DNA from: a virus
Reading direction: 5' to 3' (one strand)
Virus record (IMG/VR): IMGVR_UViG_3300009481_000097
Location: 1 to 24,138 of that record
DNA length: 24,138 nucleotides
The position numbers were made by a program, and so were the translations under genes. Position 1 is the stretch's first letter, and each line of letters begins with the position of its first letter. This document shows positions 10,296 to 24,138 of the stretch, in pieces. The notes under the pieces were generated by a model, which was not told the origin of the DNA, searched no databases, and saw only the letters and a list, made by a program, of their open reading frames with translations.

Positions 10296-10733
10296 GTGAG
10301 TTTCAAAGATCAATCATTCAGTAAACGCTTTCAAGGTATGGGAGACATAGCAGAAGGCGCATTTGAAGAAAGATACCCAGAGAATTACGTCAGGTACGGT
10401 TTGAACAGACCACCCCTGAAGATGAGTTCTCTCCCTCCTGTAGTCAGGTACACGCCTGATTATTTAACCTCAAAAGCATTTGTTGAGGTACAAGGATTAG
10501 GTGCGGATCAAATTTTTAAACTCAAAATAGACAAATTAGAGTCTCTTAGCCATTGGAATGCCATGCATCCTGTGTTGCTGTACGTGTATGACTCGCACAA
10601 CACTCGTGACAAAGTGCTAGATTGGAAAACGCTTACAAATCTTACAGTAAAAGCGAAGATAGCAAGCTTTCCAGAAGGCAAAAAATATTATGCTGTGCCA
10701 GCTTCACAGATATGGGTTGATGCCGAATCGTGA
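10296..10733 (+). CDS. PD-(D/E)XK-like endonuclease, 145 aa
   Basis: Small putative nuclease. 'GDIAEGAFEERYPENYVRYG' gives a leading Glu, 'VRYTPDYLTS' gives D55, and 'AFVEVQGLG' gives E64-x-Q66. This D...E-x-Q layout is a known variant of the PD-(D/E)XK active site, with Gln in place of Lys. Size and position next to RusA fit phage endonucleases or resolvase-like enzymes in recombination operons. The GTG start follows ggggg in hairpin 6. The alternative is an inactive or structural member of the fold. No HNH or GIY-YIG motif is present. Confidence 0.68.
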   Translation: MSFKDQSFSKRFQGMGDIAEGAFEERYPENYVRYGLNRPPLKMSSLPPVVRYTPDYLTSKAFVEVQGLGADQIFKLKIDKLESLSHWNAMHPVLLYVYDSHNTRDKVLDWKTLTNLTVKAKIASFPEGKKYYAVPASQIWVDAES

Positions 10734-11100
10734 AGTCCTAAGAGACACCATTGACTTTGGATGGCTCTTTACGCTGGCAGCAGCGAAAGAGCCAAAGCAA
10801 CCAGTCACGCCCAGTCAAGCCATGCTGGAAACAAAACCCAACCAACCCATAGAAATTTCTGCACTAGAGCGATTGGAATTAAGGGAAGTTGTAGCAAGCG
10901 CATTAGAAAACCTAACACCAGAAGAAGTTTGGATACTAAATGCCCTATTGTTTGAAAGGCTTAGTCTTAGACAAGCAGGTAGAATACTGCAAATACCTAA
11001 GACGACTCTCGCTCGCAGGCGAGATAAGATACTTAAAAAGTTAAAAAAAATTTTAGAAAACGAACCACTCGTAAGGGAGTATTTAAATGATAAAGCCTGA
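10720..11100 (+). CDS. Sigma-region-4-like helix-turn-helix protein, 126 aa
   Basis: The C-terminal half, 'LENLTPEEVWILNALLFERL' then 'SLRQAGRILQIPKTTLARRR' then 'DKILKKLKKIL', reads as a region-4/LuxR-type helix-turn-helix, including the Leu-Ser-x-x-Glu-like turn and the arginine-rich recognition helix. No sigma region 2 is present, so it is not a complete sigma factor. It could be a transcription activator, an anti-sigma or a co-sigma protein that switches to late (minus-strand) transcription. The start is uncertain: ATG 10720 overlaps the upstream gene by 14 nt and has only a weak SD; ATG 10690 is possible. Confidence 0.7.
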   Translation: MPNREVLRDTIDFGWLFTLAAAKEPKQPVTPSQAMLETKPNQPIEISALERLELREVVASALENLTPEEVWILNALLFERLSLRQAGRILQIPKTTLARRRDKILKKLKKILENEPLVREYLNDKA

Positions 11101-11659
11101 AGTCGGTCCCAAAACATGGGATGACGCAGCTCAATTATGTGCAGATAAAATAGATGCAAAAAGAAACGATGGGGTGCAACACCCTAATCGTGATGATGGT
11201 GAAGCAATGCTAAACGACATGCGTGTGTCATTTGACGATTTCGCAGCATGGTCATACGGCAGAGAATTAACAGAACTAGATCGTAACGTTATAACAGAAT
11301 ACTTTATAGCGTTAGCTATCGTTACGCTTGATACAGCACCTCATTACGACAACGTAGGCGTATCGTTAACGTCTGCGGAAGAGATATTGCCGTTATTACG
11401 CAGGAAACAGGAAGACTACGGATACCAAAACATTCACCGTTTCGGAACAGATGGGATAATTGTTCGTGCGCATGACAAAATAGCAAGAATAGAAAACCTG
11501 ACAGACCTACAAGTTGAAGGCAGAAATGAATCGCTAATAGATTCATTTACTGACTTGATAGGTTATTGCATAATAGGAATGATGGAAGTGCAAGGCATAT
11601 GGATGTTGCCTCTCAGCTCAAGCCCTAATCTTCATCCTCAAGGTTCCCTAACAGACTAG
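11087..11659 (+). CDS. MazG-like / Nmad1 (DUF1599)-like protein, 190 aa
   Basis: The segment 'LLRRKQEDYGYQNIHRFGTD', continuing 'GIIVRAHDKIARIENL', then 'ESLIDSFTDLIGYCIIGM', follows the pattern K-x-x-DYG ... G-x-x-R-x-x-DK-x-x-R ... ES-x-x-D-x-x-x-DLxGY of DUF1599, also called nucleotide-modification-associated domain 1, an all-helical domain related to MazG-type NTP pyrophosphohydrolases. It would act on nucleotides, possibly those used for base modification. Residues 1-95 form a further helical part I do not recognise. The ATG overlaps the previous gene by 14 nt; the last 35 nt overlap the convergent gene on the other strand. Confidence 0.72.
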   Translation: MIKPEVGPKTWDDAAQLCADKIDAKRNDGVQHPNRDDGEAMLNDMRVSFDDFAAWSYGRELTELDRNVITEYFIALAIVTLDTAPHYDNVGVSLTSAEEILPLLRRKQEDYGYQNIHRFGTDGIIVRAHDKIARIENLTDLQVEGRNESLIDSFTDLIGYCIIGMMEVQGIWMLPLSSSPNLHPQGSLTD

Positions 11660-11924
11660 TAGCTCGCATAATCATTTCAGTTATAGTCTCAAAAACATAA
11701 CTATGAACAGGGCAATTGTCGTAATCGCCTTCTATTGCTTCATGGTTAAATGCCATAGCATGTTCGTAAGGCAAAACTAGTAAAATGCCTAGAGATCCTT
11801 TATGCCAGACAGCATGATTGCCGTCTTCTACTACAAGAGATGATGAAGTTTTTTTGATGTTTGCGTGTATTTCCGCTGCGATGTCATTGCCTTCAGCTAT
11901 CACCCACTCATCAAAAGGGTCCAT
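11625..11924 (-). CDS. Hypothetical protein downstream of lysis genes, 99 aa
   Basis: Not recognised. Acidic, soluble-looking 99-residue protein ('MDPFDEWVIAEGNDIAAEIH', 'GILLVLPYEHAMAFNHEA') with no signal peptide or clear membrane helix. It starts 2 bp after the stop of the holin-like gene without a good SD, suggesting coupled translation. It is the last gene of the minus-strand unit, and its 3' end overlaps the convergent replication operon by 35 bp. The position would suit a lysis accessory protein, but it lacks the lipobox or transmembrane helix expected of a spanin. Confidence 0.65.
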   Translation of the reverse strand: MDPFDEWVIAEGNDIAAEIHANIKKTSSSLVVEDGNHAVWHKGSLGILLVLPYEHAMAFNHEAIEGDYDNCPVHSYVFETITEMIMRATSLLGNLEDED

Positions 11925-11926
11925 GA

Positions 11927-12088
11927 CTATTTTTTAATAGCGGATGTAATAGGGTTTTTAAACAAAACGCCACCTATGAAAGCAATAGCAGCGTCTCCGC
12001 CTATTGTTCCAACAGCGCCTAAAACAACTGCAGCTACAACACATACGATAGCTAGCAATTCGCCTTTGATTTCATTTAAGCTGTCCAT
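11927..12088 (-). CDS. Holin-like small membrane protein, 53 aa
   Basis: 53 residues: a short charged N-terminus ('MDSLNEIKGE'), then a long hydrophobic, Ala/Gly/Val-rich stretch from about 11 to 43 that can form one long or two short transmembrane helices ('LLAIVCVVAAVVLGAVGTIG' and 'AAIAFIGGVLF'), then a basic tail ending 'AIKK'. Small size, membrane helices, charged ends and a position directly after the endolysin gene (13-nt overlap) are the usual signs of a phage holin, which permeabilises the membrane for lysis. An SD (ggag) lies 6 nt before this ATG; an in-frame ATG four codons upstream could give a dual start. Confidence 0.68.
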   Translation of the reverse strand: MDSLNEIKGELLAIVCVVAAVVLGAVGTIGGDAAIAFIGGVLFKNPITSAIKK

Positions 12089-12819
12089 AAATATCTCCAT
12101 GTCACTGGTCCAACAATTCCATCTATAACTATAGGATAATTGCGCTGAAATTTCACGACTGCTTTAAAAGTTTTTCGCCCAAAAATCCCATCACATACCA
12201 AGCCACTTCTAATACGTGTGTTTAATTGCTGTTGCAATAACACAACGTATTTGCCTCTAGATCTTTTACGCAGGGGCTTACGTGCAAGCTCACGCCCAAT
12301 ATCTTCTATGTATTTGCCTAGTAAATTCCAATCAACTTGAGAAGGATTATGGTCTTTGACCATCCCACCCTTAACCCAAGAAGCAATTGCGTCAGCAGGA
12401 CAATACGTTTTAGAAAAATCCCTGTGGCATTTAACATACAATTTGTCACCATACTTTTTACGCACGCCATCAACCGCTTCAATTAAAGCATCTTTGCCTT
12501 TGTCGCTCAAATCATCACCTGACCCAATGTATGCGATAGAGATAGTCTTGTAATTAACTCCGTAAGTGGCTGCACCCTGATGCCAGCCACGCCCTTCAAA
12601 GATCTCCCCTGTTTCCCCCGAAACCAAAAAATTATATGCAATAGACTTCCAACCACGTTTCCTTACGTGGTAGCTGTCATGCTGCTTTACACGCTTCCAA
12701 GGATCTTTGGAAGAACCTGTAGTGTGATGCACAACAATGCCAACAGGCTTGATGCGAAAAGGAGATAAACGTCTCCCACTTTCAATAGCTCCCCATTCTT
12801 TTCTCTTAATGTACTTCAT
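12076..12819 (-). CDS. N-acetylmuramoyl-L-alanine amidase endolysin, 247 aa
   Basis: Peptidoglycan amidase for host lysis. Residues about 20-165 form an Amidase_2/PGRP domain: 'GIVVHHTTG' (H32 as zinc ligand), Y61 in 'SIAYNFLV', and 'KCHRDFSKTYCPAD' (H132, C140 as zinc ligands), matching the T7-lysozyme H/H/C zinc set. Residues about 188-247 form a PG_binding_1 cell-wall-binding domain ('LLQQQLNTRIRSGLVCDGIF', then 'VVKFQRNYPIVIDGIVGPVT'). There is no signal peptide, so export depends on the holin. It lies 21 bp after the giant gene's stop and overlaps the holin-like gene. The two-domain layout is usual for phages of Gram-positive-type hosts. Confidence 0.93.
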   Translation of the reverse strand: MKYIKRKEWGAIESGRRLSPFRIKPVGIVVHHTTGSSKDPWKRVKQHDSYHVRKRGWKSIAYNFLVSGETGEIFEGRGWHQGAATYGVNYKTISIAYIGSGDDLSDKGKDALIEAVDGVRKKYGDKLYVKCHRDFSKTYCPADAIASWVKGGMVKDHNPSQVDWNLLGKYIEDIGRELARKPLRKRSRGKYVVLLQQQLNTRIRSGLVCDGIFGRKTFKAVVKFQRNYPIVIDGIVGPVTWRYLWTA

Positions 12820-12840: not shown

Positions 12841-15800
12841 CTATTTGTCCTTGAGAGACTCTCTTTCCATCCAACGTAACATATTATCTATTTCTTCTTG
12901 CTCATAACCTTGCGATTGCAGCGTTCGCTGTTGTTCTGCTTGAGTATTGGTCCTTAAGCCAATACCAGTAAAATAACTTAAATAAGTAGAAAGCGCACGA
13001 TCTTGATAGCGTTGTTCATCAGGCAACAACCTGCGAACATCACCCAAAATAGGCAACATGGTCATCAACATGTTCATGTCGTAATCCCTAACCATTATTT
13101 TTCCGTTTTGTGCTTGTTTGTAAATGCCTGCAGTTAATAACGCTTCAGTCATTCCCGAAATGTTAAACGCTGTAGGTACTTGAACAAAGCGCCCATCATA
13201 ATTGTAGCCTTTCCAGAAATTTCTACTTGTTCCACGTTCAAGCGGAGCTTTTAACAGTGGCGACAAGTTAGAAGCAAGAGTAGATAATCCGCCTACAGCT
13301 TTGTCTATGGGTGTTCCGCTGGTCGTAAAAAAGGGATCAATAGTTTCTGCTAGAACTTTTTGTGGCAAGTCAGGAAGCATCCACATTTTTTCACCCTTGT
13401 AAGACCAAGGGGTTTCAAATCCGCCTTGTCTTACAAAGTAATCTGGCACAGGCGCATTGTCTTTCTCCCCATATCCAGTAAATTCTTTTTTGAAATGTTC
13501 AACACGTGCAAACTTTTTAGGTTGTTTAAATACTTCTTCAGCCATCAAAGGCAAAGCACGCTTTGTCCAAACATAAAATGGGTAGATACGTTTAATTACG
13601 CCACGTTCAAACATACTTAAGTCATCGTAATCAAAATGATATTTAATCACGTTCTCAAATGCGTCATCTACGCTTCCGCCTTTTAAGATTGTGTCAAAGC
13701 CAAGAACACCACGCAAATAAGTTTCAGTTCCTATACCTATGTTCCTGTTTGCTTGCAAGAAAGCGTTACGAGAACTCATAGGGTTAACTTTGTTTATTGC
13801 TCGCAGGATACCTTTAGGAGATCCCAATTTTTCAGGCAATCTTTTTGCAACGTCAAACTCAATAGCTGCGCCACCAATTTGACCACCGCCCAGTATTCCA
13901 CCTTCACGCATTTGATCTATAATCTTCACGTGTTCAGGATTTACTTGAGATATGTTTTCCCAAATGCCACGTTTGCGCATACTGTTCTTTAATGATTGAG
14001 CGTACTTATCTAAACCTTCTCGTTGTGCAAATTGATATTGGCTTTTCCAATACGCATTCTGAAAACGTCTATACGTTTTCGGATTGCCTACACCAGCAAG
14101 ACTATTCATAAACACGCCTGAGAAAAAGTTACGTGAATGGAAGCCAGTTTTACCAATCAAATAACCTTTAACCAAGTTATGCACAGAATCATAAGTGCGC
14201 AAGAATTTTCTCATGCCACCATCTGCTTGCCATTTAATGACATCGCCCATTGAGTTCACAATTTCTTGCGGACCTTGAGAACCTACTCCATAAGGTCTGT
14301 AACCTGATGCAAAAGTGTTTTCAAAAGTTTTAACAAAATCATCAATTTTGTTTTCATCCCACTTGTTAATGTTCAACCATTTAGCATTAACGTAATCCTG
14401 TCCTTCTTTCCCAAACTTTTTAGCAGCTTGGTTCAAATCATTAGAAGTCGTAATAATTCTTTGAGCGTTAGCAATAAATTCCTCAGCAACTATTTGCATT
14501 TCTTCATTCAACAAAGCCACAGATTCACGCAAGGCAGGTATTAAAGCTTCAGTTTCATTACCTAATTGCCCTGCAGTATTCACAATGCTTGGCGCACCAA
14601 CGTACATGTCATCCTTGATTACATCTTGTGGCAATTGTCTAGTTATTTTTTCTATTAACTCTTCAGCCTTAGCAGCTCCTTCTAACTTAACCTTTAACTG
14701 AGACACTTCTATTTGTAACGCTTCAACCTTCTTAGGAACCTTGTATTCTCTAACAAGATTGCCAGCAGCAGTCTGCTTAGTATCCCAACTCATGCCTAAA
14801 GTACTTATCTCGTTTTCTAAACGAATTATAGATTGAGTGTATGCGTCAATCGCCATATAAGCTTTGTCTTGATTCTGCAACATTGCTTTCCTTTGGTTGC
14901 TCACAAGAGCTTCCAAAGGATTATCAGGATTCTGCGCCCTTGCTTGCGCCCAAGCATCTGGCGCTTTTCTTCCTGCCAAATTACGTTCGTCCGCTAAAAT
15001 CGTCTTTGCGTATTGTTCGTATTCATCCACAAATTTTTGACCAGTAATAACAGGATTTTCTTTAAAGTTCCGAACACTATACGCTAAACCTTCAGCAGTA
15101 CGAGTAAGGTTCTCATTAGGATTAACAACGCTTACAGGGTTAGCTAGCAAAACGTTAGCCCAAGTAGCATCCGCAGAAGCCATAGCACTTCCTGTAGGTG
15201 TAATCATTGCATCAATTACGTTACCCATAGAGTCTATTTTAGGTGCGTAAACAGCTTCGTTGTGATAAAAAGCCATAGCGCCATACCCATCAGCAGCTAA
15301 ACCTTTTTTCATGCTTTCTAACATTTTAGGATAAAGCAAAGCTTCAGGTATTATTTGAGCGTCACCAAAAGATTCCATTTCGTCAATTAAATTTGCTCGC
15401 AAAGCAGGATAAGTGTCAATTGGGTTACCACTTGTAGACATTTCCGTTGCACCAAGTTTGCTTTTTTGAACTTCAGCTAATACTCTGTCAAACTTTGTAG
15501 AGTCAGAAGATATGCGTTTCCCAGTTTTAGGATCAAACATTGCAAATGGTTTCTTTGCGCTTAAACCTCCTATTTGTTCAGATCCAACGGCTCGCATTTT
15601 TTGCAAATGCGACATAATTGAATCAGCTTGAAAAGCAGGTATACCCATATCGTGTGGAGACACTTGACCTATCACGCCTGCATTTAAATAACTGGTTAAT
15701 TGAGTGTAAGTAGGAGCGCTCCCTGCTGCTCTACCAGCAGAAACTTCAGGCATAAAATCTAAAGGCTTATTGTTCTTTATAGTTGAAGGCGAAACGTTAA

Positions 15801-18800
15801 ATGCTCCCTGATACTCGTTAAAATGCATTTTTAATATGTCGTCAATTTCTTCCCTAGTAGAAGTTTTTTTCAACTTAGCAACATCAATACCCATTTCTTC
15901 AAAAATCATTCTTCGTTGTTCTGGGGTTCCATGCTGCAATTTATTTACAATTTCTTTACGCAATTGTTTAGGATCTATACCTTGTAATTGGTGAACAGGA
16001 ACATCCAAAATAGTTCCGCCAGTGTATTCATTAGCAGGCATCATGTAATGATGTGTGCTATTTCCCGCCATACTGTATTGACCACCTACAAGATTTTTTA
16101 CAATAGGAGAATCTAAAGCTATTTGTTGATTAACAAATCCTAAGTTCTTGTCAGAGTTTAAAGCGTTAAAAAAAGCTAAATCTTTTTTAATAGACATTTC
16201 GCTTGCGCTTTGTAAGCGAATTAATCCCTGCCTATGAGTTTCTAACTTGTTCATAACATCGCTTACAGCCCAATTACGCAAATCCTCAATTTCTTTATTC
16301 GTAAATGGTGTTCCACCGCTTCGTACTTCAGCTATACGAGCCACATAAGAAGAAATAAATTCTTGATTTTCTAAATAAAAATCACTTGAATGCGACGCAA
16401 TAGCGTTTTCGGCGACAATATTGTCAATGTCTAAAAGATTCCAATGATCTCCACTCGCAGTATAGTTGTCTAACGTTTGAGCAAATTCAACTGCTGAACG
16501 CCTGTCGTTTTTAAAACGTATATTAGAAATAGTTTCTTTCGGACCTTGATCCGACAAATGCCTAAGAGGATCTAAACCCCTGAGTGAACCAAAATCTGAT
16601 TCTTCAACAATATCAGTAGCGCCTTTTATGTTTCTATAAAGACCTTCTGTCATGTAAGCAGCACTAGTAACAGGGGCGACATCAAAGGCAGCTTCACCAG
16701 CGCCTCTTCTTGTCGCACCCATAGGCGCAACAGCACTTAAAAACGATATTTCTTCTTCGCTTAATTGCGCTCCTTTAGCTCTTCCTAAATAAATTTGTTC
16801 CCAAGGAGCAGCGTTACCGCCCTGCAACTCTAAATACCCAATAAAGCTTAATTTCTCATTAAATGAAAGAATATCCCACTCAGCAATATTTCTGTTATCT
16901 AAAGCCTTCATTGTTTCAAGCGTTTCAGCCCCCAAATTCAAACGAGCATTTTTGTGATTAACAGTTTCACTTCTGTCAAAAGCTTTCAAAAAGTCTTCTT
17001 GATCCTTGTTCAAAGACACGTCAGAAAGTTTTCTTTCCGTGTCTCCTTGACGCAAGTAATTAATTAACTCATCGTAAGTATCGCCGTCTTCCCTGTATGC
17101 GTATTCCAAATTCGTAAGCTCATGGTCACGCCAAGCCTTATTACGATTAGGGGTATAAGCGCCTCCGTCAATTTGTTGATAACTAGTAAACAAACGAGCA
17201 GCACCTTTAACATTTGGATCTCCTTTAATGCTGTCAACAATTTGAGAATCTAATTGATGATGAATGTCACGAAACGCATCAAAGCCTTCTTCAGTCAAAG
17301 GATTGTAAGGATCTGCCTTCATAAGGTACTCGGCTGCAGATTGAGTCTGATGCACTGGAGGCAAACCAAGAATCTTTATGCTATCACTTCCACGTGGAGC
17401 GTCAACAGAAAAAATCGTAGCATCAGTCATTCCTTGAGGTGAATACGTAGCATCTGCTTGTGTAGTGTTAATCCACAAACTATCTAACCAAGAACTTCTT
17501 GGAACGTTTTGCGTACCACTAAAGTCTTTGGGGCGAACACCCGACATGTTGCTAGTTCCTTTGCCATAGCCATGCTGAACGTAAAAACTCATACGTTCTT
17601 GAACAGCAGCAGCAGAACTAGGAACTTTATCTATAGCAGGAGTTCCATTAGCTACTTTTGCTATAAAGTAACGACTAACAGAATTTGCTGTTTGCTCATC
17701 AACTTCAGGCAAAGCACCATAAACATTTACATTAATGTTTAATTCCTCTCTAGCTTCTCGCATAGCAGCTTCAATAGGTGTTTCGCCTTCATCCATACCG
17801 CCTTTAGCGTGACTCCATTTAACCCCACCAAACGGTTCGCCAGTAGAAGGAGTATCAGTAGGCATACGCATAACAACGTTTCCGTCAGCGTCTACGACAA
17901 CGACACCATATCTAATTGATCTACCATCTGGAGTTACAGTATCTGTCATAGAACCTGACCACAAAGCGTTATCTACAGCTTCATCCACATCCCACGTATA
18001 TTTATCAGGCGTCAATCCTGCGATGCCGTCTTTGACTTTATTTCTTCTATTTGTCTCTACCCAATCTTCATAATATCCACGCCCAGAAGGAGGTTCATTT
18101 CCAAGCGATAACCCATCACCCAATTCCTCTACATAATCTCCCTGTTCCCATTCAGGAAGAGTGTAATCTTCCAAATCTGCAAGAGCTTCAGAATCATTGT
18201 TCAAATAAGCTTCGTCATATTTTTTAGCAAAGTTTTTCTCAGTAAAGTCAGGGTATTCGTCAGGTCGCATCAATACGGTATCAGCAGCATCTTCTTCAAA
18301 TAAACTTTTTTGAAATTGAATGTCATCAGCACGTTTTATATTCGGTGTGTAACCAAAACTCATTGCTTCTAAAACGTCTGGGTTTGATTTTGACCAACGC
18401 TCAAATTCTTTAAGCACAGAAACGTCTCTTAAAATTCCTTCCCTGTCTGCCGTATTTAGCTTTGTTCCATTTCTAACTTCACGTATTGCATCTCGCACAG
18501 AAAACGATTTAATTGCTTGCGTTTCTCCGTCATTGCTTATCCAAGACGGCAAACCCTCTTTTTGAGATGTTCTTTGCTGAGCTGTATGCGCAGGACTAAT
18601 AATATTTTTGACAGTTTCTTCATCAAAATTAGAAGCAAGTTTTGCTTCCATAAGTTCTTTGCCTTCTAACAAAGGAGGAGTTTCTTCTAAATGATTTCCT
18701 AAAACTTCCTGCAAGTTTTTAGTTCTTACTTCAAGCCAATCAGTAAACATTTCCACATCATTAGCGGTAGCTTCAGGTCCTAAAGTTTGTTTAACGAAAC

Positions 18801-21800
18801 CTTCCCACCCTCCGTAACCGCTTCGCATTTCTGCAATTGTTTCAAATTGGATTCCAAGTTCAAACCAAAAAGTTTCATTTTCTTGCATTTCGCTTCTGAA
18901 CATTGTCTGCCATTTACTTGGCTGATTTTCAAACTCTTCACTAAAGAAAGTTCCCATAGAACCATCAGCATTTTCTAATTCATCTACAGCACGCCAATCA
19001 AATCCCTGCGTATTTGCTTTAGATAAACCTTGCGCTCTGTAATGAAAAGAAGCACCATTGTCTATACGCACAACAGCACCAGTTAGCATGTCAATTCCGA
19101 TATTGTCAGCGTCATAGCCGACAACATCGGAATTGGATACCAAAATATCCATTAACATTTGTTCTTTGATTCTTTGACTAAACGGAACTACTTCATTAAC
19201 ATTCGCTTGCGCCTGATAACGAGCTAATTCTTCAGGGCTGCTAGCAATAGCATGAGTACCATTTTTGAATTTAATTACGCTTACATCAGATATAGGGGGG
19301 CTTCCTTGAGGGAAAGCAAGTCCGTCACTGAATTTAGCTATTTTCCATTGCCCATTTTGCAACATGTCGCCAACCATAAAATCGCCAGCGTTAGCTTGCT
19401 GACGTAAAAAGTCAGGTGCAAAACTATCAGTTGAACTTTGCCAAGAATTAGGAGCAGCTTTAGAAGTTTGCCTACCTGTAGCTAAAGTATCCATTCGTCT
19501 ATACAAAGCATCGGCAAGCACTTCGCTTTGGACTCTGTTCCTAGCTACGTCATCTATAGTGTGACCGTATTCTGTGAACACAGCAGCTTCATCGCCTTGT
19601 TCTAAATTAGGGTCATAGCGTTTAATGTAAAAATCTAATTCATCGCCTTCTATGTTTGTGCGAATATGAAAACCTACGTTAGTGCCACCCTGTACCGCTT
19701 GTATGCGATTATTCAACCTAGCAACAGGGTTAACGCCTTTGCCTTTAGCAGCAGCACTAGCTTGTATAACCCGACCATTTTTTAAAATGGTCGTAACATC
19801 AGCTAAATTATTTGTAGACAATGCACCCATTTGCATTTGCCACATATCACGAGCTTCTTTTAAGTTAATAAAATCTTGAAGACCTTTTTCTACAACAACT
19901 TGCCCAACCCCATCTGTGTCTATCTGAATTTTCATAGGAGGGATAACAGGGTTTTCTTCTAACGCAAATTGATAAATAGCCAACTGATCGTATAAATCAT
20001 TTTCTATTTGACTAATAGCGCTTTGTATCTCAGAACCAGATTCAATAGGGCGAACACGCAAGTCATTTCCCATCGTTCCATAAAAAGTTAAAATAGCTTC
20101 ACGAAACTCTGGATCAGTTCTCAAAGTATCTGAAGTGCGCAAATCCATAGGACTACTAGCATTCTTTGCAATGCCCTCGTCTACCTTGCGTAAAATAGTT
20201 GCTTGAGCTTCCTCAACGTTTGCAACTGTAGGCAATTTACCAAGAATCTCTTCCTGTATTCCTTCCCTACCTATAATTTGTTCTATTTCAGTTAAAACAT
20301 TTTGAGCTTTAGCGTTACTTTTTTCTATAGTCGCAAGCATGTTATCAAATTGAGCAACTGGATTAACAACAAGATTGTCCATCGTTGCACCAATTTGCAC
20401 AGTCATTGATACGTTTGTGCCAAAAGCCGTTTGGTCCAAGTTGTCCAAAACAGAAACCATTTTCATCAAGTCAGTATTGACCTGTACGTTATTGCGAGCC
20501 GATCCATCAGGCATAGTCATTTGCCATTGAAAACCATTAGGTGTTTCATCTGTAACAGTGCCTACAAACCCAGAACTTTTAACCAAACCATCAAAAGCTT
20601 CACCAATACCATTTTCGTCAACAACATCCGCAAGCTGAGCACTAACAAATTCATCTACGTTCCTATGAATAGAAGGATCAAATTTGCCAATTACCTGACG
20701 GTAAACATCAAAGTTTTCTTGACCCCCCACAATAGAAGATATTATTTGCTTATTTTTCATAAGCTCTCGTGTGCCTGTTCGCAATGATTGCGCATACAAC
20801 CTGATCCTATTGCCGTCACCTTTAGCTTGAACCACGAGTTCCTGTATGCGATTCATCTTCTTTTGCAAAGGCATTATTTCTTTAAAATCAGTTGAAGCCA
20901 ACCTAGCCAACTCAATACGAGTATTCTCAGATTGCTTGTTTAAATCAATAATTGTTGTTTCTAAACCATCTACAATTTCTTCCTGCTTAATTTGTTTCTC
21001 AACGTATTCATTTAATTTAAATTCTGCCTCTTCGTATTCTTTTATTCGCAATGCGTGTGCTTCCATAGCATCATCAAGTTGTTGCTTTTTTAAAGCGTAA
21101 TTAGAATTATCCCAAGCGACATTAGAAATTGATCCTTCGCCAGAAGCTGCAAGATCTCCTGCCAATTGATCTAATTTTTGTTGCCCATTATTAATAGACC
21201 TACTAAGACCATGCAATTTAAAAGTAAGCTTGTCCATCTCTTGCGTAGGGAAAGTAGTTAACGACGCAATTCTGTCAACAAACACGCCTTTACGTTTTAA
21301 TACTTCTTCTGTAAAAACATCGCCTGTCCTTATAGATAAACCACCTATATAAGCAGACAACGCACGACTTATATTGTCATCAAACAATTCGTAACCAATT
21401 TGCAGATCTTCCATCACAAAAGCTATTTGTTTTTCAATAGAAGGAGCCTTACCGCTTGCTACCCTGTTGCTCAAAACCCAAGCATGACCATCAGGCAAGC
21501 TAGAACCTACGTCAAACAACTCATATCCCATGAACCCCTTAGTAACGCCCTCGTTACCCAATTCCCATATAGCTGTTGCTTTCGTTTTCCCTTTAGCAAC
21601 TTTCTTAGCTACAAGTTCGTCAAAAGCATTATCAGAAATAAGAGAACGTTTAAGTTCATGTTGTGTCAAAGCATCCGTATTAGATATGCGACCCTTCTTT
21701 AAACCAAAAGTCCCTGAACGTCTCTGAATATATTCACGAGCTTCTTCATTTAAAATACGTGGAACATAAAAAGGAACCTCGCCAACAAATTCGTAACCAG

Positions 21801-23613
21801 CGCCTTCGTTAGCTATGTTCCGCAACTTGTTAAACAGAACTTGACCATCTCTTAACAAAGGTTCCGTAAATATTGGAGTGTTTGTTACAGGATCTAAATT
21901 AGCGTGTCCTTGTATTTTAATTATTGCGTCTGTGTCTCCACCTAAAGCATGATACAAAGTTTTTTCAAGCTCATCTCCTCGTAAAGTACCACCATCAGGC
22001 AATTCAACTTTTGAAGCTTTTACTTGCGATAAGTAATTTCCTGCCTCACGAGCCATTTGAGTTTTTATTATTCTGCCTTTCCATTGTCCACGACCAGCAG
22101 CGCTGAGAGCAGCACGTGCTTGATGTCGTTGGACCGCAGTAGCACTACCACTTTTAGCTATCGCACGTTGGGCTTGCATACGCCCACCAGTGCGCATCCA
22201 ACCAATTACTCCACGACCATACCCTATGTCCCCTGCGCCAAAAGCAACCCTTCTAGCAGCTTTAGGAAGAGCGCCTACAGCAGGACCAATAATCGGCATA
22301 GAAAACGGAACTCTAGCTATCTTTAAAGAAGCAGGATAACCCTTACCTGCAGCCCAAGGAATTTTAAGCGAACGCCCAATAGGACCAGCTAAAGGAATTT
22401 TTAAACCAGCAGCCATTTTAACAGAAGCAGCTTCCTCTGCGGAATTAAACAAAGCCCCTTTCCATCTAGCATGTTCTGCTACTTCAGTTCCAATTTTTTG
22501 ACCAGCATTAACCATTTGCATTTCTGATAAATAGTCTTTAAACGGCAAACCGTTTTTATCCATTTTGTTCAAATGCATGTGTTTTGAAACTAATTGTATT
22601 TGATCGTCTGCGAATCCACTTAATCCCGAAACGCCTTCAAGTTTGTACAATCCTTTGATGTCATCAACTAAACTTTTAGGAATGAGAACCAAATTTTCCA
22701 TTGTGCTAATCATTTCAGGATTCTTTTTAGCTATGTCCATAATGTAGCCATTAGCAGTTTTTTTAGGCTTTACACCTGACATAACATCTAAATCAACAAC
22801 CCAATCACCATCATTTAATTGACGGTAAGCGTGTTTAGCGTCATAACCTAAATCTTTTGCTGCACCTCTAACAGTAAAAGCAGGACCAGAATCTCCAAGT
22901 ATTTGAGCTAGGTTTTTTAATTTGCCTTCTTCAATTGCTGCAGTTCCAAAACGTGTACCAAACCTTGCAGTACCACCTGAAAAACCTTCTACAATGTGTC
23001 GCCTCAAAGAATGAGAAGCTAAATCGCCTCCACCTAATTTAGCTCCTTTAAGAATTACATTTCCAGCAGCAACACCTTTACCAACCAAGCCAACGTAACT
23101 TAAAGGGTCAAGAGCTACATCTCCAGTAAAGCTAATTGCTCCCCTGAGAAACCAACCTGCACCCCATTTATCTTCCCATACACCGCCTTGCATCCAATTT
23201 TCATCATGCAACAAACGACCAAAAGTGTAGCCCTCTTCAGCTTGTTCTTTAAAATCTCCGTAGCTCCAACCTTCGCCTTGAGCAAAATCAATTGTTTCTT
23301 TCAAAGCTGAACTAGTTACAGCTAAAGGCAAACTTAACGCTTTAAACAAAGTCCCTAACGGACCCATGCCCTTTTGAACTACAGTGCGCCAACCACCTTG
23401 ACCAAAATCTTCTGGAACTCCGCCAGTGGATTTTAAAATTTCATCTATTGACCTACCCCCACTAGTACCAGTACCAGATAGAGGTGTTGCAGGAGTAACA
23501 GGGGATTGCTGTTCTGCAGGTTTAGGTAATTCTATTTCTATTCCACCAGCAGCAAAGTTAGCCATAGCTGTTTCAAAGGGATCTTTGTCTTTTTCTTTAT
23601 TAGGAAAGACCAT
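12841..23613 (-). CDS. Giant multi-domain (polyvalent-type) protein, 3590 aa
   Basis: One uninterrupted 10.8-kb frame, about 45% of the window. Order of recognisable parts: Pro/Thr-rich N-terminus (about 30-60); hydrophobic Gly/Pro stretch with repeated LKIP (about 398-450); coiled coil (about 838-908); kinase-like domain with 'FYIKRYDPN' (K1331), 'VSNSDVVGYDADNIG' (D1496, N1504) and 'VRIDNGASF' (D1518); Nudix domain (about 1898-1995) with box G1938-x5-E-x7-RE-x-x-EE; possible ADP-ribosyltransferase-like stretch (about 2510-2800); coiled coil (about 2915-2992); C-terminal module with 'GFHSRNFFSG' (N3162) and 'YPFYVW' (3344-3349), resembling the large-polyvalent-protein domain LPD38. Such proteins are thought to enter the host with phage DNA. 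The gene follows a virion-type gene by 3 bp and precedes the endolysin. No protease or portal motif was seen. Confidence 0.85.
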   Translation of the reverse strand: MVFPNKEKDKDPFETAMANFAAGGIEIELPKPAEQQSPVTPATPLSGTGTSGGRSIDEILKSTGGVPEDFGQGGWRTVVQKGMGPLGTLFKALSLPLAVTSSALKETIDFAQGEGWSYGDFKEQAEEGYTFGRLLHDENWMQGGVWEDKWGAGWFLRGAISFTGDVALDPLSYVGLVGKGVAAGNVILKGAKLGGGDLASHSLRRHIVEGFSGGTARFGTRFGTAAIEEGKLKNLAQILGDSGPAFTVRGAAKDLGYDAKHAYRQLNDGDWVVDLDVMSGVKPKKTANGYIMDIAKKNPEMISTMENLVLIPKSLVDDIKGLYKLEGVSGLSGFADDQIQLVSKHMHLNKMDKNGLPFKDYLSEMQMVNAGQKIGTEVAEHARWKGALFNSAEEAASVKMAAGLKIPLAGPIGRSLKIPWAAGKGYPASLKIARVPFSMPIIGPAVGALPKAARRVAFGAGDIGYGRGVIGWMRTGGRMQAQRAIAKSGSATAVQRHQARAALSAAGRGQWKGRIIKTQMAREAGNYLSQVKASKVELPDGGTLRGDELEKTLYHALGGDTDAIIKIQGHANLDPVTNTPIFTEPLLRDGQVLFNKLRNIANEGAGYEFVGEVPFYVPRILNEEAREYIQRRSGTFGLKKGRISNTDALTQHELKRSLISDNAFDELVAKKVAKGKTKATAIWELGNEGVTKGFMGYELFDVGSSLPDGHAWVLSNRVASGKAPSIEKQIAFVMEDLQIGYELFDDNISRALSAYIGGLSIRTGDVFTEEVLKRKGVFVDRIASLTTFPTQEMDKLTFKLHGLSRSINNGQQKLDQLAGDLAASGEGSISNVAWDNSNYALKKQQLDDAMEAHALRIKEYEEAEFKLNEYVEKQIKQEEIVDGLETTIIDLNKQSENTRIELARLASTDFKEIMPLQKKMNRIQELVVQAKGDGNRIRLYAQSLRTGTRELMKNKQIISSIVGGQENFDVYRQVIGKFDPSIHRNVDEFVSAQLADVVDENGIGEAFDGLVKSSGFVGTVTDETPNGFQWQMTMPDGSARNNVQVNTDLMKMVSVLDNLDQTAFGTNVSMTVQIGATMDNLVVNPVAQFDNMLATIEKSNAKAQNVLTEIEQIIGREGIQEEILGKLPTVANVEEAQATILRKVDEGIAKNASSPMDLRTSDTLRTDPEFREAILTFYGTMGNDLRVRPIESGSEIQSAISQIENDLYDQLAIYQFALEENPVIPPMKIQIDTDGVGQVVVEKGLQDFINLKEARDMWQMQMGALSTNNLADVTTILKNGRVIQASAAAKGKGVNPVARLNNRIQAVQGGTNVGFHIRTNIEGDELDFYIKRYDPNLEQGDEAAVFTEYGHTIDDVARNRVQSEVLADALYRRMDTLATGRQTSKAAPNSWQSSTDSFAPDFLRQQANAGDFMVGDMLQNGQWKIAKFSDGLAFPQGSPPISDVSVIKFKNGTHAIASSPEELARYQAQANVNEVVPFSQRIKEQMLMDILVSNSDVVGYDADNIGIDMLTGAVVRIDNGASFHYRAQGLSKANTQGFDWRAVDELENADGSMGTFFSEEFENQPSKWQTMFRSEMQENETFWFELGIQFETIAEMRSGYGGWEGFVKQTLGPEATANDVEMFTDWLEVRTKNLQEVLGNHLEETPPLLEGKELMEAKLASNFDEETVKNIISPAHTAQQRTSQKEGLPSWISNDGETQAIKSFSVRDAIREVRNGTKLNTADREGILRDVSVLKEFERWSKSNPDVLEAMSFGYTPNIKRADDIQFQKSLFEEDAADTVLMRPDEYPDFTEKNFAKKYDEAYLNNDSEALADLEDYTLPEWEQGDYVEELGDGLSLGNEPPSGRGYYEDWVETNRRNKVKDGIAGLTPDKYTWDVDEAVDNALWSGSMTDTVTPDGRSIRYGVVVVDADGNVVMRMPTDTPSTGEPFGGVKWSHAKGGMDEGETPIEAAMREAREELNINVNVYGALPEVDEQTANSVSRYFIAKVANGTPAIDKVPSSAAAVQERMSFYVQHGYGKGTSNMSGVRPKDFSGTQNVPRSSWLDSLWINTTQADATYSPQGMTDATIFSVDAPRGSDSIKILGLPPVHQTQSAAEYLMKADPYNPLTEEGFDAFRDIHHQLDSQIVDSIKGDPNVKGAARLFTSYQQIDGGAYTPNRNKAWRDHELTNLEYAYREDGDTYDELINYLRQGDTERKLSDVSLNKDQEDFLKAFDRSETVNHKNARLNLGAETLETMKALDNRNIAEWDILSFNEKLSFIGYLELQGGNAAPWEQIYLGRAKGAQLSEEEISFLSAVAPMGATRRGAGEAAFDVAPVTSAAYMTEGLYRNIKGATDIVEESDFGSLRGLDPLRHLSDQGPKETISNIRFKNDRRSAVEFAQTLDNYTASGDHWNLLDIDNIVAENAIASHSSDFYLENQEFISSYVARIAEVRSGGTPFTNKEIEDLRNWAVSDVMNKLETHRQGLIRLQSASEMSIKKDLAFFNALNSDKNLGFVNQQIALDSPIVKNLVGGQYSMAGNSTHHYMMPANEYTGGTILDVPVHQLQGIDPKQLRKEIVNKLQHGTPEQRRMIFEEMGIDVAKLKKTSTREEIDDILKMHFNEYQGAFNVSPSTIKNNKPLDFMPEVSAGRAAGSAPTYTQLTSYLNAGVIGQVSPHDMGIPAFQADSIMSHLQKMRAVGSEQIGGLSAKKPFAMFDPKTGKRISSDSTKFDRVLAEVQKSKLGATEMSTSGNPIDTYPALRANLIDEMESFGDAQIIPEALLYPKMLESMKKGLAADGYGAMAFYHNEAVYAPKIDSMGNVIDAMITPTGSAMASADATWANVLLANPVSVVNPNENLTRTAEGLAYSVRNFKENPVITGQKFVDEYEQYAKTILADERNLAGRKAPDAWAQARAQNPDNPLEALVSNQRKAMLQNQDKAYMAIDAYTQSIIRLENEISTLGMSWDTKQTAAGNLVREYKVPKKVEALQIEVSQLKVKLEGAAKAEELIEKITRQLPQDVIKDDMYVGAPSIVNTAGQLGNETEALIPALRESVALLNEEMQIVAEEFIANAQRIITTSNDLNQAAKKFGKEGQDYVNAKWLNINKWDENKIDDFVKTFENTFASGYRPYGVGSQGPQEIVNSMGDVIKWQADGGMRKFLRTYDSVHNLVKGYLIGKTGFHSRNFFSGVFMNSLAGVGNPKTYRRFQNAYWKSQYQFAQREGLDKYAQSLKNSMRKRGIWENISQVNPEHVKIIDQMREGGILGGGQIGGAAIEFDVAKRLPEKLGSPKGILRAINKVNPMSSRNAFLQANRNIGIGTETYLRGVLGFDTILKGGSVDDAFENVIKYHFDYDDLSMFERGVIKRIYPFYVWTKRALPLMAEEVFKQPKKFARVEHFKKEFTGYGEKDNAPVPDYFVRQGGFETPWSYKGEKMWMLPDLPQKVLAETIDPFFTTSGTPIDKAVGGLSTLASNLSPLLKAPLERGTSRNFWKGYNYDGRFVQVPTAFNISGMTEALLTAGIYKQAQNGKIMVRDYDMNMLMTMLPILGDVRRLLPDEQRYQDRALSTYLSYFTGIGLRTNTQAEQQRTLQSQGYEQEEIDNMLRWMERESLKDK

Positions 23614-23616
23614 GAA

Positions 23617-24138
23617 CTACCTAGCAACAAATTCGTTTATTAAATCCTGTTCGCTCATGCCAACAATCCGATTAATCATTCCTGTAATGTCCCCACGAGT
23701 CTGATCGTCTTGCCCTTCACTAGCCATAACTCCACTTATTACTTCAGGTCGGTAGCCGTAATTTAAAGCACCAGCTTCAGCAAGTTCAGTAGCCCTAGCT
23801 GTTTTTTCTTTATCGCTTAGATTATCCCAGCCTTCTTTCGCTAAACCAGTGATTACTTTTTCACCTATTGACCTGTACACACGAGAAGCATCTAAACCAG
23901 CAGCACCTGTTCCATAATTTTGCGCAAACCAAGTATCGTTAAAGCCCATAGTTTCTGGAGCTTCAGATGGGTTGAATTGTGATTCAACAGAATAACCAAC
24001 TAACGCCTCATATTGAGCCATTTTAAAACCGTCATCCAAAGCGTCAAATTCTTCTTGGCTCATACCGCTAAACACACTATTTGGGTTATTTGCCATAGAA
24101 TCATACAAGAAACCAAAAGCCGATTCTTTAGCAGCTTC
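23617..24138 (-). CDS. Partial protein upstream of giant gene, at least 173 aa
   Basis: The frame is open to the window edge, so the N-terminus is missing; the TTG at 24108 is not a likely start. The visible part is acidic with helical, Ala/Glu/Asp-rich segments ('SQEEFDALDDGFKMAQYEAL', 'SRVYRSIGEKVITGLAKEGW', 'MINRIVGMSEQDLINEFVAR'). No family is recognised. Three bases separate its stop from the giant gene's ATG, so the two are almost certainly co-translated. By position it may be the end of a virion or internal protein, for example a lysozyme-type tail protein whose catalytic part lies outside the window, but that cannot be checked here. Confidence 0.7.
   Translation of the reverse strand, partial: EAAKESAFGFLYDSMANNPNSVFSGMSQEEFDALDDGFKMAQYEALVGYSVESQFNPSEAPETMGFNDTWFAQNYGTGAAGLDASRVYRSIGEKVITGLAKEGWDNLSDKEKTARATELAEAGALNYGYRPEVISGVMASEGQDDQTRGDITGMINRIVGMSEQDLINEFVAR

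Follow-up and report, generated by a model that had tools for sequence, protein, structure and literature searches.

A 3590-residue cysteine-free phage protein with kinase and Nudix domains is probably an N4-type ejection protein of a short-tailed phage

Results

Giant gene and its neighbours

The stretch of DNA analysed here (the window) is a 24,138-bp virus record. It is a fragment without head genes of its own, in which only flank genes are visible. The minus strand carries a giant gene between an endolysin gene and an incomplete gene:

23617..24138, minus strand: 3' end of the upstream gene (P0002), cut by the contig end; position as in the relatives G012 and G013
12841..23613, minus strand: whole gene of the 3590-aa giant protein (P0001), without cysteine
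12076..12819, minus strand: endolysin with Amidase_2 and peptidoglycan-binding domains, directly downstream of the giant gene

The giant open reading frame contains 3590 codons, starts with ATG, and runs without interruption, as a preliminary description of this DNA had stated. Because a stop-free frame of this length is too long to arise by chance, the open reading frame is real. Comparison with the closest relative indicates purifying selection, with dN/dS of 0.12–0.37 in the nine stretches where dS is unsaturated (dS is saturated in the other three).

The stop codon of the upstream gene lies 3 bases ahead of the start codon of the giant gene, and the upstream fragment is expected to mark the place where a partner ejection protein would sit. 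In relatives, the gene that immediately precedes the giant gene encodes an Ala/Gln-rich protein of 670–943 aa with a shared motif (L121 16069-18249, L122 9069-11078, L123 15206-17236, and L030 1188-4016). This protein is probably helical and is a candidate partner ejection protein. No convincing alignment was obtained between P0002 and the upstream proteins of the relatives.

The plus strand of the window carries a replication block (PD-(D/E)XK nuclease, helicase, primase, and RusA-like protein), recognised on visual inspection and from its resemblance to annotated podoviruses. A 99-aa open reading frame (11625-11924, minus strand) between the lysin gene and the replication block is 47–73% identical in relatives and, given this conservation, is probably a genuine gene. 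A 136-aa protein (10690-11100, plus strand) is conserved in relatives and has, by eye, a sigma-factor-like helix-turn-helix at its C-terminus; it is a possible late-transcription regulator. No tRNAs or Rfam families were found in the window.

Relatives with longer records define the genomic place of the giant gene. G012 is a 40.9-kb relative whose replication proteins are ~50–75% identical to those of the window. It carries on one strand, in order, genes for the portal, major capsid protein, structural/internal virion protein, fibres, a 727-aa protein, the giant protein, and the lysin. The order in G005 is terminase, portal, capsid, internal virion protein, fibres, a 465-aa protein, and the giant protein, and the GenBank podoviruses MW202803 and MW202795 have the giant gene at the same place. 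In each of these genomes it follows the head and tail genes of a short-tailed phage, and in the relatives it is the last gene of the virion block, ahead of the lysin gene. Two distant matches, one in a metagenome bin of Acidimicrobiaceae and the other in Cellulosimicrobium phage DS1, make an actinobacterial host likely for the virus of the window. The DS1 protein (L020 6593-11944) is a member with the chassis. The family of the giant protein occurs in uncultured, probably actinobacterial podoviruses.

Conserved ends and a variable middle

Searches of GenBank phages with the gene region (megablast) and with residues 1–1004 (tblastn) returned no matches, and neither did searches of viral contigs with whole-protein peptide patterns. 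Distant GenBank relatives and IMG/VR contigs were found with the C-terminal 590 residues as the query. The closest relative, a single contig under the handles L001, L101, and L103, is alignable over residues 1034–3589. A split gene in this relative was considered and rejected; the apparent frame break is a scaffold gap of N. Searches with the kinase region yielded more full-length members of ~2800 aa (L105, L107, and L108). Relatives with open frames of 6–7 aa, an artefact of match-end framing, were left out.

Among the 47 relatives complete at the 5' end, with protein lengths of 1106–3590 aa, an HMM of the C-terminal module matches all 47 and an HMM of the N-terminal module matches 40; both HMMs were seeded with six long members, which match by construction. 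Thus, the ends are conserved across the family, whereas the middle varies. The regions of the giant protein are as follows:

22834..23436, minus strand: N-terminal module, residues 60–260 (HMM search of relatives)
20914..22833, minus strand: residues 261–900, of which 399–888 are partly common to L004; long alignments to the podovirus giant proteins of G012 and G013
18634..19716, minus strand: kinase domain, residues ~1300–1660 (sequence alignment, AlphaFold model, VIA-align)
17629..17949, minus strand: Nudix domain, residues 1889–1995 (Pfam PF00293, residues 1901–1995, E 2e-11)
16114..17313, minus strand: residues 2101–2500, no recognised domain; aligns only with the closest relative, at 56–64% identity
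15109..15345, minus strand: residues 2757–2835, with the motif GYGAMAFYHNE...NPVSVVNP (by eye)
14434..14931, minus strand: residues 2895–3060, long helices forming a coiled-coil-like linker (predicted model of residues 2740–3590, low to moderate confidence there)
12844..14331, minus strand: C-terminal module, residues 3095–3590, related to the N4 virion RNA polymerase (vRNAP) C-terminal region and to LPD38/polyvalent proteins

The preliminary description had read residues 60–800 as orphan sequence and had expected new enzymes over most of the length. Residues 60–260 are instead a conserved module of the family, and this module and residues 3095–3590 are chassis modules present in most or all relatives, including some without recognised cargo. 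The coiled coils that it had proposed agree with the long helices predicted in the model of residues 2740–3590.

Apart from the Nudix domain, Pfam and PHROG searches recovered no convincing domain in the giant protein; VTC and DUF494 matches were dismissed as noise. Residues 2757–2835 resemble the last strands of phage ADP-ribosyltransferases, a lead only, and a profile search with the similar segments of relatives gave no support for an ADP-ribosyltransferase. Four relatives of 2150–2450 aa (L012 6824-8728, L014 7841-8983, L018 7415-8677, and L043 4972-6150) carry a conserved segment that starts near (Y/W)HG and ends with GYDSIxY. This segment also looks like a phage ADP-ribosyltransferase, again a lead only; a profile search of the PDB did not support the assignment. 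A relative of 3505 aa (L004 959-11473) holds in its middle a Fic domain (Pfam E 2e-8), a degenerate kinase, and, by eye, a GNAT-like motif.

Nudix and kinase domains

The Nudix hydrolase named in the preliminary description is borne out by the Pfam match and by the Nudix box, G1938x5E1944x7R1952E1953xxE1956E1957. Every glutamate and the arginine are kept, and the only departure from GX5EX7REUXEEXGU is G to N at position 1959. The domain is common to L001, L104, L105, and L109, and is 77% identical to that of L001.

The kinase-like fold was likewise confirmed, with sequence alignment and predicted structure in agreement: residues 1300–1660 are predicted to form an atypical kinase of the CtkA/MavQ/CotH/PI4K/HipA fold with key residues intact. 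Specifically, this region aligns with L105, L104, L109, L107, L108, and L110-L115 at 23–71% identity. K1331, E1364, N1494, D1496, N1504, and D1518 are kept, as is a GGW motif (1601–1603) in the C-lobe; by alignment, which assigns the residue roles, and by the model, the lysine, glutamate, catalytic aspartate, asparagine, and metal-binding aspartate of a kinase are all present. The AlphaFold model of the domain has pLDDT mostly ~70–90. Its alignment with VIA-align gave CtkA (Z 13.6, 235 residues, 4.3 Å), MavQ (13.1), and CotH (13.0), followed by PI4K II alpha (11.9), actin-fragmin kinase, and HipA (10.7). Kinase matches from plain Foldseek were weaker (best E 0.004). No model of Pfam or NCBIfam covers the domain, and a sequence-profile search for a solved kinase returned nothing where the fold search succeeded. 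The domain shares the predicted fold and the pattern of catalytic residues with CtkA, MavQ, CotH, and HipA; unlike them, it is embedded in a giant phage protein, and the identity is only 10–13%.

Because a kinase and a Nudix domain lie in one polypeptide of a phage late gene, the giant protein has at least two unrelated enzyme domains, as polyvalent proteins do. The polyvalent proteins described by Iyer et al. 2017 (PMC5512222) also combine several unrelated enzyme domains in one polypeptide and are encoded among late virion genes. Their kinase is of the Ser/Thr type without the C-lobe, whereas the giant protein has a CtkA/HipA/PI4K fold whose helical C-lobe, with the conserved GGW, is both modelled and aligned. 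The sole mention of Nudix in that study is as a neighbour or fusion partner of InPase (PMC5512222). Polyvalent and ejection proteins are known in kind; the combination of kinase and Nudix is new.

The unannotated kinase family, with the motif GFAADVLxGNWDaVGxxxDN...RIDNGGsf...GGW, also occurs in MuF/SPP1-gp7 and ADP-ribosyltransferase proteins of other phages:

L110 2901-6242: SPP1-gp7/MuF minor-capsid domain; ADP-ribosyltransferase domain alongside the kinase
L112 2763-6419: ADP-ribosyltransferase domain alongside the kinase
L113 2937-8105: kinase-bearing protein of the MuF/ADP-ribosyltransferase set
L114 3465-6215: weaker MuF match
L115 1797-6719: SPP1-gp7/MuF minor-capsid domain

Thus, at least two unrelated types of virion protein carry the kinase, and its recurrence in unrelated MuF minor-capsid/ADP-ribosyltransferase proteins is as would be expected of movable injected cargo. 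This links the giant protein to the MuF polymorphic toxins (Jamet et al. 2017, PMC5576092), some of the kinase-bearing MuF/SPP1-gp7 proteins having an ADP-ribosyltransferase domain. Unlike MuF toxins, the giant protein has no MuF domain that we could find and sits in podoviruses. Neither 'kinase' nor 'HipA' appears in the main text of Jamet et al. 2017 (PMC5576092).

The two enzyme domains vary across the family. L107 has a kinase without a Nudix match, the kinase site of L004 is degenerate, relatives of 1100–1900 aa without recognised cargo exist, and neither domain is recognised in short members. The cargo is therefore not essential to the chassis. The same relatives without recognised cargo and the degenerate site of L004 would fit a purely structural ejection protein, packaged and ejected, whose kinase and Nudix folds contribute to architecture or assembly and play no enzymatic role in the host. 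We consider this unlikely. The catalytic residues of both domains are retained in P0001 and in relatives down to 23–30% identity, and another long member carries a Fic domain. Moreover, both domains evolve as slowly as the C-terminal module: the kinase, Nudix domain, and C-terminal module are 72%, 77%, and 71% identical to those of the closest relative, compared with 39–64% elsewhere.

C-terminal module

The C-terminal module was modelled with 41 sequences (model of residues 2740–3590). The top Foldseek matches carry the name 'Large polyvalent protein associated domain-containing' (E 7e-18) or are LPD38 proteins, which upholds the polyvalent-type module of the preliminary description and adds a further likeness to polyvalent proteins. 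No Pfam LPD, MuF, ART, or peptidase model matches P0001; the resemblance to LPD38-annotated proteins is structural.

Against BFVD, Foldseek also returned N4-like virion RNA polymerases (E 0.02–0.1, prob 0.99–1.0 for the best two). Against the PDB, it did not return N4 vRNAP; PDB Foldseek and VIA-align gave only common helical arrangements, which were set aside. Using hhalign, the module aligned with the C-termini of five N4-like vRNAPs with scores of 34.7 and 38.4 over 305 and 230 columns, compared with maxima of 25.3 and 26.4 in 120 column shuffles and with 18.7 and 14.6 for reversed profiles. Because these scores exceed the shuffles at a low nominal probability (12–18%), we call the relation distant but probably real. 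By this profile evidence, the module is probably related only to the last part of the N4 vRNAP C-terminal domain, which the N4 structure paper describes as a new fold whose specific role in early transcription is unknown (PMC12633501).

The N4 vRNAP (gp50, Schitoviridae) resembles the giant protein in several respects: it has ~3500 aa, no cysteine, and a related C-terminal region, and its gene is the last of the late strand, facing the replication genes. These likenesses would suit a very diverged N4-type virion RNA polymerase, and there is precedent, as another phage's giant protein was presumed to be a vRNAP on the grounds of its size and lack of cysteine (PMC10747016). We regard this identity as very improbable. 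The N-terminal and middle parts give no profile match above shuffled controls to the N4 NTD, RNAP domain, or C1 domain, nor does the protein give one to a single-subunit RNA polymerase domain (a highly diverged domain could be missed), and the slot of the polymerase is partly occupied by kinase and Nudix. Unlike N4 vRNAP, the giant protein also has no detected HExxH zincin motif.

The label of phrog_19395, 'tail fiber protein; host specificity', matched by 17 of 19 C-terminal modules, suggests instead a tape-measure, tail-fibre, or host-specificity protein. A motif resembling FDYDDLS...PFYTWTRK of the C-terminal module lies in residues 718–801 of PDB 9k3a chain A, a solved 1114-aa 'Tail protein' that is matched weakly (E 0.0034), and tape measures also exit through the tail and may be cysteine-poor. 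Such a role is nevertheless hardly credible: the gene sets of the relatives are those of podoviruses and encode fibres separately, G012 has no recognised gene for a tail tube or tail chaperone, and the protein contains globular enzyme domains. The preliminary description had named an only fibrous or tape-measure-like architecture as the finding that would speak against it; the kinase and Nudix folds show otherwise.

Absence of cysteine

The giant protein contains no cysteine in 3590 residues. The relatives, which are not independent of one another, contain one in 107,560 residues, and 63 of the 64 have none. The ejected proteins of model phages offer a comparison: N4 gp50, gp51, and gp52 and T7 gp15 and gp16 lack cysteine, and T7 gp14 has one. 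Cysteine is present in the portal, tail, and appendage proteins of N4 and in the remaining T7 virion proteins examined, but the major coat protein of N4, which is not ejected, also has none. The absence of cysteine in an N4-like vRNAP has been published (PMC4837373). By this analogy, the absence of cysteine supports ejection of the giant protein. Because tape measures could also be cysteine-free, the trait favours passage through the tail and not one particular class of protein. Like the giant protein, T7 gp15 and gp16 are large, cysteine-free, and encoded late in the virion block; unlike them, the giant protein has no recognised peptidoglycan-cleaving domain.

The complete lack of cysteine bears as well on whether the protein might be a late cytoplasmic enzyme that is never packaged, as the adjoining lysin gene could suggest. 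With a C-terminal module in common with an ejected protein and a kinase that recurs in capsid MuF proteins, we find this scarcely conceivable.

Discussion

We conclude with fair confidence that the giant protein is an ejection protein of the N4 type, encoded by a short-tailed phage, with kinase and Nudix as its cargo. Ejection is suggested by the relation of its C-terminal module to the N4 vRNAP C-terminus and by the absence of cysteine. The gene, the domain folds and motifs, the architecture of the family, and the place of the gene in relatives are direct results; packaging, ejection, enzymatic activity, targets, and timing are inferred. The effector proposed in the preliminary description probably stands in its main part, on the enzyme domains, the location among virion genes, the polyvalent/N4 vRNAP-type C-terminal module, the lack of cysteine, and the kinase in MuF proteins; the new enzyme over most of the length does not.

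We propose that the N- and C-terminal modules would form a chassis that packs the protein in the capsid near the portal and allows exit through the tail, and that the middle would be enzymatic cargo, a CtkA/HipA/PI4K-type kinase and a Nudix hydrolase. Upon adsorption, the chain, free of cysteine, would pass through the tail in a largely unfolded state, together with the DNA or shortly before it, and would refold in the host cytoplasm. There, ahead of phage gene expression, the kinase would phosphorylate a host protein (a lipid or small molecule being less likely) and the Nudix domain would hydrolyse a nucleoside-diphosphate derivative. In this way, the giant protein probably reprograms the cell as soon as infection begins.

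A broader reading, which we offer tentatively and stop short of calling probable, is that the N4 vRNAP C-terminal region belongs to an injection chassis that is cysteine-free and general among phages. The slot ahead of it would hold exchangeable cargo, namely RNA polymerase in N4, kinase and Nudix here, and Fic or others in relatives, and giant cysteine-free virion proteins would then be a readable catalogue of injected effectors. If so, the delivery chassis of giant phage proteins would be separable from the cargo, and the unexplained C-terminal region of N4 vRNAP could be given a possible origin and function. It would then be unwise to label large cysteine-free virion proteins as RNA polymerases by default, and phages would place an unannotated kinase family in both giant ejection proteins and MuF capsid proteins.
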